From Acinetobacter sp. WCHAc010034 (lineage in GTDB: Bacteria > Pseudomonadota > Gammaproteobacteria > Pseudomonadales > Moraxellaceae): a stretch of DNA of 64,000 nucleotides. Below the pieces are notes generated by a model. That model saw nothing but the letters and a program-made list of their open reading frames with translations. It was not told where the DNA came from and searched no databases. The stretch lies in contig NZ_CP032279.1 of assembly GCF_001696615.3 (NCBI RefSeq), positions 3,348,001-3,412,000 on the forward strand, in the 5' to 3' direction. The translations under genes were made by a program, and so were the position numbers. Of this stretch, positions 44,542 through 47,787 are shown piece by piece (the stretch's first letter is position 1; the number at the start of each line of letters is the position of its first letter).

Positions 44542-44586
44542 ACGCTTTTACTTTATTACTTTTAGATATTTCAGTTGAGTGATTTC

Positions 44587-45888
44587 ATGAGCTTATCTCC
44601 AAAGCAAGAACAATTGTTTAAACAGGCCAGCAAGCATATTCCTGGCGGTGTGAACTCGCCTGTGCGCGCGTTTAACAGTGTGGGCGGTACGCCGGTATTT
44701 ATTGAAAAAGCTCAAGGCGCTTATCTTTATGACGTAGACGGCAAGCGCTATGTGGACTATGTCGGCTCATGGGGGCCAATGATTTTAGGCCATGCGCAGC
44801 CGGATATTATCAAGGCGGTGCAAACCGCTGCTGTAGACGGCTTGAGTTTTGGCGCGCCGACGGTGCATGAAACCACGCTGGCCGACATTATCTGTGAAAT
44901 TATGCCGTCAATTGAGCTGGTGCGCATGACCAACTCAGGCACTGAAGCGACCATGACGGCGATCCGCCTGGCGCGCGGCTATACAGGCCGTGACAAAATT
45001 GTGAAATTTGAAGGCTGCTATCACGGCCATTCAGACTCGCTTTTGGTGAAAGCCGGTTCAGGCCTGCTGACCAACGGCGAAGGGGAAGCGACTTCTGCGG
45101 GCGTGCCGGCGGACTTTGCCAAGCATACTTTAACGCTGCCGTATAATGACATTGCGACTTTAAAGGAATGCTTCGCTAAATTCGGTTCTGAAATTGCCGG
45201 CGTGATTGTTGAGCCTGTGGCAGGCAATATGAATCTGGTGAAGCCGGTGGACGGTTTCCTGCAGGCGATCCGCGATGTCTGCGATGAGCACGGTTCAGTC
45301 TTTATTATTGATGAAGTGATGACCGGTTTCCGTGTTGGCTTAGGCGGCGCGCAGGCGCACTACAATGTTAAGCCGGATTTGACTACGCTGGGCAAAATCA
45401 TTGGTGCAGGCCTGCCGGTCGGCGCATTTGGCGGCAAGCGTGAAGTTATGGAATGCATCGCGCCATTGGGCAAAGTTTACCAAGCAGGCACACTTTCCGG
45501 CAATCCGCTGGCAATGCGCGCAGGCATTGAAATGTTCAAGCATCTGCGCCAGCCGGGCTTTTATGAAGCGCTAACAGCTAAGCTGGAAGGCTTGCTGGCT
45601 GGCCTGCAGGCAGCTGCGGATGAAGAGGGCATTGCGTTTAAGACTCAGCAAGTAGGCGGCATGTTCGGCCTTTACTTTACCGATCAGGACGACATTACCA
45701 GCTTCGACTCCATGCTGAAATGCGATGTGGATGCATTCCGCAAGTTCTTCCACGGCATGCTCAGCCGCGGCGTGAATCTGGCGCCTTCCGCTTTTGAAGC
45801 AGGCTTTATTTCCAGCGCGCATAGCGATGAAGACATTGCATTTACGATTGAAATGGCGAAAGAAACATTTGCGGAAATGAAAGCTTAA
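44587..45888 (+). CDS. hemL: Glutamate-1-semialdehyde 2,1-aminomutase HemL
   Basis: The 433-residue PLP enzyme makes 5-aminolevulinate for haem. [44 protein letters not shown] and the PLP Lys in [18 protein letters not shown] are all canonical. The frame is open to a TTG at 44575, but ATG 44587 gives the standard start [11 protein letters not shown]. Confidence 0.97.
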
Positions 45889-46044: not shown

Positions 46045-46172
46045 ATAAAAGCGTGGAGCTTTGATTGAAAAATAAGCGTGGAACGTGAATAATAATTAAA
46101 AAGCAGTTTCAAGGTGCTGAACCCTGGAACAGCCTTGACTAAGGTGTTGATGTTTATGAATAAATTTCAAGA

Positions 46173-46200
46173 ATTTCGCATAGCGTGTATTATGTTAATT
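46173..46200 (+). other. dif-like XerC/XerD site 1
   Basis: XerC arm ATTTCGCATAG, centre CGTGTA, XerD arm TTATGTTAATT; 21 of 28 positions match E. coli dif. It stands 34 bases before the first island gene and is followed by TTAGA, like sites 2 and 3. Confidence 0.7.
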
Positions 46201-46234
46201 TTAGAGAAAATTAAAAATATAAAAGGGAATTAAT

Positions 46235-46663
46235 ATGGAAATTGATTTCAAGGTTAAATCCGTTTCAGGCTTAATTGGATCTTTAAATATTCAAATTATT
46301 CCTACTGATCTAAATAGAAATGCCAGTTGTCTAAATTCGATCGTAATTAATGAAGTTGCCTTTTCGTTGGTTGAAAATTTTTTTAATAGGAATAAGGAGG
46401 AATATTTTCATTGGGGAAATACCTATATTAGTTCTGAAACGATTGGAGGTATCGTTAAAGATTTATACTATTTTCATAGTTTTATAGCTAAAAGTAATAA
46501 ATTTGACAGAACATTGAAACTGATCTTTAGTGAGGAGACAGAGTTTTTTGACGAGAATTTTTTAAGTTTGAAGCCTAAAGTCTTAATTATGATCAGTGAA
46601 ATAATTAATTTTCTAGAAAATATTGAGAATCAAAAAGATGGCATTACAGTTCTTGGTGTTTAA
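46235..46663 (+). CDS. Island gene 1, hypothetical protein of 142 residues
   Basis: An AT-rich gene unlike its neighbours in base use. The acidic product has no signal or membrane segment: N-terminal strands (DFKVKSVSGLIGSLNIQII), a middle with YFHWGNTYISSETIGGIV and a helical C-terminus. It could be a small immunity- or stress-type protein, but I do not recognise the family. GGGAATTAAT before ATG gives a fair ribosome site. It is flanked by dif-like sites 1 and 2, the layout of a mobile cassette. Confidence 0.65.
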   Translation: MEIDFKVKSVSGLIGSLNIQIIPTDLNRNASCLNSIVINEVAFSLVENFFNRNKEEYFHWGNTYISSETIGGIVKDLYYFHSFIAKSNKFDRTLKLIFSEETEFFDENFLSLKPKVLIMISEIINFLENIENQKDGITVLGV

Positions 46664-46677
46664 GAAGCAAATTAGCA

Positions 46678-46705
46678 TGGGCTGTTAATTCGTATTGTGT
46701 TAATT
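46678..46705 (+). other. dif-like XerC/XerD site 2, XerC arm degenerate
   Basis: XerD arm TTGTGTTAATT and centre TTCGTA (the same centre as site 3) are preserved; the XerC arm TGGGCTGTTAA keeps little beyond TAA. It lies 29 bases before island gene 2. Confidence 0.5.
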
Positions 46706-46733
46706 TTAGAAATATTTAATAGCTGGAAGTAAT

Positions 46734-46928
46734 ATGACTAAAAATCCGGAATGGGTCACACGTGGTAAAAGTATCAAGCAATTAATTGAAGAATTAGAAT
46801 CTTTCGAAGATCAAAACCTATTAGCTGAGATATCTTTTGACGATGGAGAAACATCCAAGCCTATAAGTTTAGTTAGTAAAATTGATGGTAAATGTATTCT
46901 ACTGAATTGTGAAAACTCAACAAAGTAA
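46734..46928 (+). CDS. Island gene 2, small acidic protein of 64 residues
   Basis: The product reads WVTRGKSIKQLIEELESFEDQN, then EISFDDGETSKPISLVSKIDG and CILLNCE: a basic helix followed by strands. The pattern resembles small proteins I recall from gene cassettes, but this is unverified. AT-rich. It stands between sites 2 and 3, again cassette-like. Function unknown. Confidence 0.68.
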   Translation: MTKNPEWVTRGKSIKQLIEELESFEDQNLLAEISFDDGETSKPISLVSKIDGKCILLNCENSTK

Positions 46929-46987
46929 TACCCATTATTTAAAATAATAGATGTCATAAGTCAAAAAATGTAAAAACGTGGATCTAC

Positions 46988-47015
46988 GTTTCGCATAATT
47001 CGTATGATGTTAATT
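46988..47015 (+). other. dif-like XerC/XerD site 3
   Basis: XerC arm GTTTCGCATAA, centre TTCGTA, XerD arm TGATGTTAATT; 21 of 28 positions match E. coli dif. It is preceded by the small palindrome AACGT-GGATCT-ACGTT and lies 31 bases before island gene 3. Confidence 0.7.
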
Positions 47016-47046
47016 TTAGACAAACTACAATGTAATCATTAAAGCT

Positions 47047-47484
47047 ATGGAAAGAAACGAATACCAAGAAGAAAAGCATACTAAGTTTCTTTATTCGAAT
47101 AAAAGACGCATTCAGCGAAGAGTTCTACAATTAGAAAAATCTACAGCTGAAGCGATTCATAGTTATATTCAGTTTAACTATAGAGATGAATGGTTTGAAA
47201 GCAACTTTGCTATCTTAAGTTGTTGGAAATTTTCAAAAATAGATTTTGGTAAGCCTGACACTTTTTGGTGTGATACGATTTATTTTGAAGATTTTCATAT
47301 AGAAAATAATAGAAAATTTGTTTTTAGTGGACACGCTTGGATTGGTTTATCAAGCAATGTTGGATCAGAATGGAAAGTTCCAGTTACAGGAAAATTTTGT
47401 ATCAGCCCGACAGGGAAAATATTAAAAAATTATACCCTAATTTTTTACAATGGAAGTCAGAGATTAATTTTATCGAAACAATAA
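47047..47484 (+). CDS. Island gene 3, hypothetical protein of 145 residues
   Basis: The product has a basic, helical N-terminus (SNKRRIQRRVLQLEKSTAEAI) and a beta-rich, aromatic C-terminal part (DTFWCDTIYFEDFHIENN, FVFSGHAWIGLSS, SPTGKILKNYTLIFYNG). No signal or membrane segment, no recognised family. Strongly AT-rich. It lies between site 3 and the inverted site 4, so it forms a module bounded by opposed Xer sites. Confidence 0.65.
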   Translation: MERNEYQEEKHTKFLYSNKRRIQRRVLQLEKSTAEAIHSYIQFNYRDEWFESNFAILSCWKFSKIDFGKPDTFWCDTIYFEDFHIENNRKFVFSGHAWIGLSSNVGSEWKVPVTGKFCISPTGKILKNYTLIFYNGSQRLILSKQ

Positions 47485-47505
47485 AAAAACCTTAAATCAT
47501 TCTCC

Positions 47506-47533
47506 ATTTAACATAATGGGCGTTATACGAAAT
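47506..47533 (-). other. dif-like XerC/XerD site 4, inverted, near-perfect
   Basis: On the minus strand: XerC arm ATTTCGTATAA, centre CGCCCA, XerD arm TTATGTTAAAT. The XerD arm equals that of E. coli dif at all 11 positions, and the whole looks like the pdif sites of Acinetobacter plasmids. Confidence 0.8.
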
Positions 47534-47661
47534 CAATGGAAATACTGTTTTAATTTCCTGTTGGAAAACCACGAAGCATCCATTGTATGCCCCATAATAC
47601 AGTTAGAATTAAGACTACTGAAACCACGATTTTTCATTCATGCAGTTTTAAGTATTCCTGA

Positions 47662-47689
47662 AATTAACATAATACATGTGATACAAAAG
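47662..47689 (-). other. dif-like XerC/XerD site 5, inverted
   Basis: On the minus strand: XerC arm CTTTTGTATCA, centre CATGTA, XerD arm TTATGTTAATT. The 128 bases between sites 4 and 5 hold no credible gene. Confidence 0.6.
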
Positions 47690-47709: not shown

Positions 47710-47787
47710 AATCACTTATTTAACCTAAAATCTTTTATACTAAATTAGAATATTAGAATCCAATATCTGATCTGCATTCTGTTGATT

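Follow-up and report, generated by a model that had tools for sequence, protein, structure and literature searches.

A probable docking site for dif modules downstream of hemL in Acinetobacter

The stretch of DNA analysed here (the window) comprises 64,000 nt of Acinetobacter sp. WCHAc010034, on the 3.63-Mb contig (C13) of a 13-contig genome, and contains an array of small genes and dif-like XerC/XerD sites, flanked by hemL on one side and by a flavin oxidoreductase gene (Pfam Oxidored_FMN) on the other. A first-pass annotation, made from the sequence alone, described three orphan genes, each preceded by a site in an integron-like layout, and proposed a Xer-driven cassette platform. According to our comparisons, the array probably consists of several chromosomal dif modules in a row, lying at a docking site that is conserved on the chromosome and served by host XerC/XerD, and has collected orphan immunity genes in this strain. 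Among Acinetobacter, dif modules are carriers of resistance genes.

Sites and genes of the array

Sites were defined as 28 bp, consisting of an 11-bp XerC arm, a 6-bp spacer and an 11-bp XerD arm, and were scanned with the pattern TTTCGTATAANNNNNNTTATGTTAAWT at up to 3 mismatches, using dinucleotide shuffles and the reversed pattern as controls. The window contained five matches (sites 1, 3, 4, 5 and 6), and 100 dinucleotide shuffles contained none. Over the whole genome the pattern matched 29 times forward and 30 times in reverse, 59 in all, against 1 + 1 for the reversed pattern, indicating that the dif-like sites are real. Chance matches, or vertically inherited intergenic sequence with no link to Xer, are already refuted as an explanation by the shuffles and by the homology breaks at sites described below. 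Nothing spoke in its favour, and we give this reading practically no weight. The features are as follows.

44575..45888, plus strand: presumably hemL (Pfam Aminotran_3, 5e-74), the conserved neighbour anchoring the locus
46045..46172, plus strand: Element 1 (E1), about 130 bp, adjoining the XerC arm of site 1
46173..46200, plus strand: site 1, class 1, spacer CGTGTA, one deviation in the XerC arm
46235..46663, plus strand: gene 1, 142 amino acids, probable orphan immunity gene
46678..46705, plus strand: "site 2", class-1 XerD side retained, XerC arm gone, aligned to intact sites of relatives
46734..46928, plus strand: gene 2, 64 amino acids, probable orphan Ntox21 immunity gene
46937..46964, minus strand: decayed inverted class-2 site, which would once have closed gene 2
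46988..47015, plus strand: site 3, class 1, spacer TTCGTA, one deviation in the XerD arm
47047..47484, plus strand: gene 3, 145 amino acids
47506..47533, minus strand: site 4, class 2, spacer CGCCCA, no deviation, closes the gene 3 module
47662..47689, minus strand: site 5, class 1, one deviation in the XerC arm
47718..47745, minus strand: site 6, imperfect and palindrome-like

Sites were assigned to two classes by a simple rule on the spacer and the end of the XerD arm. In this genome, class 1 has mostly NNNGTA spacers and XerD arms ending in ATT, and TTAG follows immediately in 21 of 27 cases. Class 2 has mostly NNNCCA or GAGATT spacers and XerD arms ending in AAT, with TTAG following in 0 of 33. 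PMC6449649 already distinguishes two clusters of central sequences. The TTAGA-type flank seen in the first reading is accordingly real but not special to the array.

The opposite directions of sites 1 to 3 and sites 4 and 5 were confirmed, and five 28-bp matches do exist in the window, but not the five originally counted: "site 2" drops out, site 6 comes in, and the decayed site at 46937-46964 is additional. Sites 1, 3, 4, 5 and 6 qualify as 28-bp dif-like sites at 2 or fewer mismatches, whereas "site 2" fails, deviating from the allowed alternatives at 5 of 11 positions of the XerC arm and at one of the XerD arm. A 28-base site upstream of each gene was thus found for genes 1 and 3 but not for gene 2. 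The start of each gene shortly past a site was likewise confirmed, at 34, 28 and 31 bases after sites 1, 2 and 3.

The decayed inverted site aligns with the intact class-2 sites of plasmid copies of gene 2, and its score was equalled in 3 of 5000 shuffles; the gap from it to site 3, aligned with gene 2 modules elsewhere, is 23 bases. Because it lies between gene 2 and site 3, gene 2 is not a one-gene-one-site unit. After gene 1 we found no recognisable closing site, the best candidate being equalled by 348 of 5000 shuffles, and gene 3 (sites 3 and 4) is the only gene in the window bounded by inverted sites. The apparent one-way array would result from decay of the closing site of gene 2 and of the XerC arm of site 2, together with the lack of a recognisable site after gene 1. 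Beyond site 4, the pair 6/5 resembles a pair on contig C7 of the same genome (2542 and 2598), and the 128 bases between sites 4 and 5 (47534-47661) look by eye like a truncated start of a module gene running leftward from site 5.

The same modules in other contexts

The three genes had been described as orphans. This does not hold, as relatives occur in 12 of 175 genomes of the genus for gene 1, 6 of 173 for gene 2 and 37 of 175 for gene 3, the present genome included. By coordinates, two of the three genes are adjacent in this genome alone among the genomes listed. Fixed vertical inheritance of the three genes together, which had been named as the pattern that would speak against a mobile array, is thus not what is seen.

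Gene 2 lies on plasmid CP033555 between a class-1 site and an inverted class-2 site, and the same layout, with imperfect closing sites, is found on NZ_CP084302 and in genome G049. Gene 1 is present in an IMG/VR contig (L135) in the same arrangement of class-1 site, gene and inverted class-2 site, with 84% identical residues and 90% identical bases. Homology to that contig covers 46185-46667, from within the spacer of site 1 to just past the gene, and the module there adjoins a phage-type integrase gene (Pfam). Three more small open reading frames (ORFs), one with a sub-threshold DUF596 match, precede it (L135:741-2624) and are possibly further modules. For gene 3, homology with genome G099 spans 47011-47479 and begins within site 3. 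The same module therefore occurs in differing contexts with breaks at the sites, for gene 1 in L135 and for gene 2 on plasmids and in G023, G049 and G062. In six contexts of gene 2, the XerD-side half of the spacer is always GTA, and the XerC-side half is TTC, GGC, GGT, GGT, CGT or CTC. That breaks fall at sites and that the GTA half travels with the module both support an XerCD mechanism.

Descriptions of dif modules, of their occurrence in chromosomes and of the rules for C, D and CD modules have been published (PMC13141974, PMC12907356, PMC6449649, PMC11705084). In these rules, C and D modules alternate with inversely oriented sites, and fused CD modules are a known exception. In the present case, gene 2 with its decayed site and site 3 (46692-47020) has a 94% match on a 12.9-kb contig of G023, another species, where homology ends at sites 2 and 3. 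The fused form is common to both and has thus itself moved.

This unit is also the best argument for an integron-like reading, in which each gene, together with one directly repeated site, would form a cassette able to leave as a circle and to be taken up at site 1, with E1 and site 1 providing the fixed side. Against this, most relatives are modules with inverted sites (genes 1 and 2 are closed elsewhere by inverted class-2 sites), site 2 has no XerC arm, and the portion of PMC11705084 that bears on the matter detected no deletion between directly repeated sites. Moreover, no ORF between hemL and the oxidoreductase gene exceeds 145 amino acids, so that no integrase fits there, as had been stated in the first-pass annotation. 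We regard such cassettes as very improbable. These alignments make a string of chromosomal dif modules the probable reading of the array, its one-gene-one-site look being secondary.

Plasmid searches found no relatives of genes 1 and 3, the phage search none of gene 2, and the viral-contig searches none of genes 2 and 3. Gene 1 as a single-protein query found nothing in genome contigs, and an alignment query found 8 loci. Gene 3 relatives of 44-50% in loci L108-L115 (genomes G065, G104, G096, G017, G170, G119, G141 and G124) adjoin a tandem paralogue, and in L108 and L113 a metG-like gene lies alongside by eye.

A probable docking site downstream of hemL, conserved in position and orientation

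We compared the stretch downstream of hemL in 81 other Acinetobacter species, of which 21 loci came from a first search and 60 were fetched later. The first search covered 149 genomes including our own, left 67 others outside the 81, and mainly the best hemL scorers were chosen. Of the 81 stretches, 24 measure only 705-2201 bp, and sites with more than 3 deviations were left out of the counts. A class-1 site in the same orientation, with 0-3 deviations, lies 642-735 bp after hemL in 19 of the 81. In all 19 an HbpS-like gene (Pfam 1.8e-28) precedes the site; this gene is present at 62 of 81 hemL loci, and none of the 19 loci lacking it has the site. In the window hbpS is absent and E1 directly follows hemL. 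Within the first kb past hemL, the opposite orientation gave two weak matches only (L168 and L182). Since G009 and G043 carry cargo identical to that of locus L071 at 2.2 and 3.1 kb from hemL, outside the scanned stretch, 19 of 81 is a lower bound. In L072, one of the two loci concerned (L072 and L073), transposase-like sequence follows hemL directly by eye.

E1, of about 130 bases, combines CGTGGAAC-type repeats with a hairpin whose sequence varies and a stretch rich in A and T. A hidden Markov model (HMM) of E1 plus site, trained only on 8 plasmid copies of this genome, scored 107 bits at the window and matched 23 of the 81 other hemL loci, all in one orientation and within 1 kb; no further match occurred anywhere in the 81 stretches. 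Pattern site and HMM agree in 18 loci, and either is present in 24. The E1 core and the site are 96 bp apart in the window; among the 11 loci in which both were found by pattern, 10 have 94-96 bp, and L086 has 72 bp. In a tree of hemL and hbpS, which contains only the 62 hbpS-bearing loci, site bearers are widely spread and one part of 21 rows has none, which suggests an old site with losses. Taken together, the site keeps its position and orientation across many species.

E1 also terminates Rep_3/OrfX plasmid backbones. We found 23 stretches matching E1 and/or the site in this genome, and aligned 31 rows of E1 (33 minus two identical ones). On the seven plasmid contigs of this genome with both a rep match and E1, E1 lies downstream of rep on five (C4, C6, C7, C8 and C9) and on the other side on C10 and C11; it is downstream of rep also on CP033555 and on contig 36 of G023. 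An orfX relative stands between rep and E1 on C4, C7, C8, C9, CP033555 and G023 contig 36, and OrfX gives helix-turn-helix matches below Pfam cut-offs. At the chromosomal E1 copies, searches found no rep and no orfX. Among 72,556 plasmid records, 545 match some part of the array query, and 35 of the 40 listed match at E1 + site 1. Two Rfam matches, both below gathering score, lie outside E1. E1 may be a cis-acting accessory sequence, or merely the terminator end of a plasmid backbone, and the part of PMC11705084 dealing with this point reports no accessory sequences next to two of its plasmid sites.

The cargo was compared only for plus-strand sites within 1 kb whose XerD arm ends in TT. A class-2-type closing site is present in 9 of the 19 loci, several of them imperfect and the inverted match of L182 not counted, and these nine loci carry seven cargo families. 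Comparison of L071 with L156 gives 99.4% identity for the cargo (342 bases), 76.0% for hbpS, 73.2% between hbpS and the site, and 63.7% past the closing site, where just 91 bases align. Counted per 50 bases, identities rise from 28 to 49 across the first site and fall from 46 to 30 across the second. L166 and L179 behave similarly (cargo 94.7%, hbpS 81.4%, past the closing site 70.0%), and in L068 and L071 hbpS is 94.0% identical and the cargo unrelated. Across species, then, the cargo either differs or is common with breaks at both sites. The L071 cargo is also carried as a module of class-1 site, gene and class-2 site on plasmids NZ_CP071768 and CP079749 (88% of residues).

These data bear on another reading, that the sites are inert remnants of long-integrated Rep_3/OrfX plasmids, with an inherited position after hemL and with cargo differences arising through ordinary homologous recombination, deletion and insertion sequence (IS) insertion. 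Such fossils would account for the decay of several window sites, for the spread of bearers with one bearer-free part of the tree, for E1 as the end of plasmid backbones and for the differing closing spacers. They do not account for cargo of 99.4% beside hbpS of 76% with steps at both sites within 50 bases, which together with the occurrence of the same cargo in plasmid modules points to recent traffic in at least some species. We consider this reading unlikely, though more plausible than integron-like cassettes. The proposed Xer-driven platform thus survives in its recurring site downstream of hemL, its differing cargo and the identity steps at sites, but not in its integron-like layout.

Several observations concern the sites of this genome at large. 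The likely main dif is at C13:85566 and the window sites at C13:3394173-3395745, about 322 kb apart. Of nine loci with sites on the chromosome, seven are no farther than about 322 kb from the likely main dif, dnaA being at 1,941,768. By eye, the matches listed for other genomes, from a search of 28, showed no general clustering at the terminus, and we set such clustering aside. Contigs C4-C11 (L035-L042) are small Rep_3-type plasmids rich in dif modules, which by eye hold toxin-antitoxin pairs and resistance-like ORFs of the ABC-F, macrolide phosphotransferase and aminoglycoside acetyltransferase types. Related genes resembling beta-lactamases by eye form single-gene modules on the chromosome (C13:212147-213488, L047) and on plasmid C8 (L039:6887-8239). 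At the class-2 sites C13:2648038, 3520670 and 3563443 and C8:1187, repeated sequence stops 5 bases before the XerC arm, and a similar insertion point is reported for ISAjo2-type elements (PMC10132070).

Probable immunity cargo, proposed mechanism and known systems

Relatives of genes 1 and 2 adjoin toxin domains, and on this basis both genes are most likely orphan immunity genes, gene 2 being better supported than gene 1. In A. dispersus NZ_CP041970 (G010), large toxin ORFs stand in tandem. The first ends in Ntox21 (5.4e-31), and a gene 2 relative (68%) overlaps or touches its end; the second contains PT-HINT (8.8e-26) and an RHS repeat below cut-off, and is followed 12 bases later by a gene 1 relative (54%). 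The toxin end matches the CdiA chain 4ntq (8e-8). Gene 2 relatives directly follow Ntox21 also in Rhizobium sp. C104 (5.5e-29) and Caballeronia SBC1 (1.9e-21). On CP033555, the unit adjoining gene 2 is an Imm42 gene, so named in CP119248, and SMI1/KNR4 genes are named among the plasmid records matching the array query; PMC12907356 describes a pdif module with an SMI1/KNR4 gene, whose product is given there as having no known function. Searches for relatives of known structure gave none convincing for genes 1, 2 and 3. The selected benefit of such orphan genes would probably be protection against the polymorphic toxins of rivals.

In the mechanism we favour, the fixed part of the chain would be the hemL side, that is, E1 and a class-1 site with its XerC arm towards hemL, and the cargo would lie on the XerD side, normally as one gene closed by an inverted class-2 site. 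Positions, orientation, breaks and shared cargo are read directly from the sequences, and from them we infer that host XerC/XerD join plasmid and chromosome by recombination between a site on each, giving a cointegrate, which a second crossover at the partner sites would resolve so that the module stays, as proposed for movement between plasmids. Three modules would have accumulated in the window, with decay of the closing site of gene 2 and of the XerC arm of site 2. A further, tentative possibility is that E1 and the class-1 site form a dedicated two-part attachment site, with a core and an XerC-side accessory perhaps read by OrfX, common to Rep_3/OrfX plasmids and the ancestral hemL locus. 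It might let Acinetobacter species exchange single genes, including orphan immunity genes, between plasmids and one fixed chromosomal slot by host XerC/XerD only, as a recombinase-free counterpart of the integron for interbacterial defence.

A number of points weigh against a Xer-served chain with immunity cargo. Recombination is deduced from sequence and none was observed, and homologous recombination inside the cargo may contribute. The closing spacers of shared cargo differ (TCGCCA, TGACCA, CAGCCA), although cases described in PMC13141974 required identical or nearly identical spacers, so that homologous recombination could have helped. PMC11705084 reports that cointegrates formed, but that genes were not exchanged and that directly repeated plasmid sites gave no deletion of the DNA between them. 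In 62 of 81 species the stretch downstream of hemL lacks a recognised site. As for the cargo, a gene 1 relative stands beside a toxin at 1 of 8 genome loci, no recognised toxin was found beside the gene 2 relatives in Psychrobacter, Moraxella and G143, and gene 3 has no assigned function. Twenty further ORFs in or beside modules gave no match to an immunity family; DUF6966, Abi_2, ankyrin and Sel1 were the matches over cut-off, and the remaining ORFs matched weakly or not at all. Six cargo proteins or protein fragments from other species had no match over cut-off either. Immunity cargo as a general rule of modules was rejected for this reason, and we restrict the claim to genes 1 and 2, to the Imm42 gene adjoining gene 2 and to the SMI1/KNR4 genes.

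In the open-access literature (subscription papers were not covered), we found nothing on the conserved hemL locus, on E1 at plasmid ends or on toxin-linked relatives of genes 1 and 2. The conserved hemL locus, E1 at the ends of Rep_3/OrfX backbones, and gene 2 and gene 1 relatives behind Ntox21 (three genera) and PT-HINT, respectively, thus appear to be new with respect to that literature. A fixed docking locus in many species is a place to watch exchange between chromosome and plasmids, and E1 is a concrete candidate for a cis-acting sequence. Immunity cargo, if true, would give module traffic a purpose beyond antibiotics.

The closest known system is the dif (pdif) modules of Acinetobacter Rep_3/OrfX plasmids, reportedly treated by Blackwell and Hall in 2017. 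As far as passages of PMC13141974 describe them, they share with the array 28-bp XerC/XerD sites, small modules, inverted sites and fused CD modules. The same cargo also appears in different contexts in both, and gene 2 is itself such a plasmid module. Unlike them, the window array lies in the chromosome, at one locus that is conserved between species; its cargo probably includes immunity genes, and its inner inverted sites are decayed. Chromosomal dif sites and module islands are likewise additional chromosomal dif sites with modules of the plasmid type, whereas a fixed docking locus, E1 and immunity cargo are not described in the relevant portions of PMC6449649 and PMC12907356. Integrons resemble the array in having a fixed attachment side and variable cargo, and one directly repeated gene-site unit is present here; in contrast to integrons, the array has dif-like sites and no integrase, and most units are modules with inverted sites. 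Xer-exploiting integrative elements at dif (IMEX) would have the use of host XerC/XerD in common with it, but the array is not at the main dif. Finally, acquired orphan-immunity clusters, such as those of Bacteroides, are toxin-less immunity genes on mobile DNA; the window resembles them in that immunity genes without a toxin seem to have been collected on mobile DNA, and differs in that its genes are carried between Xer sites, in an array without a recombinase gene.

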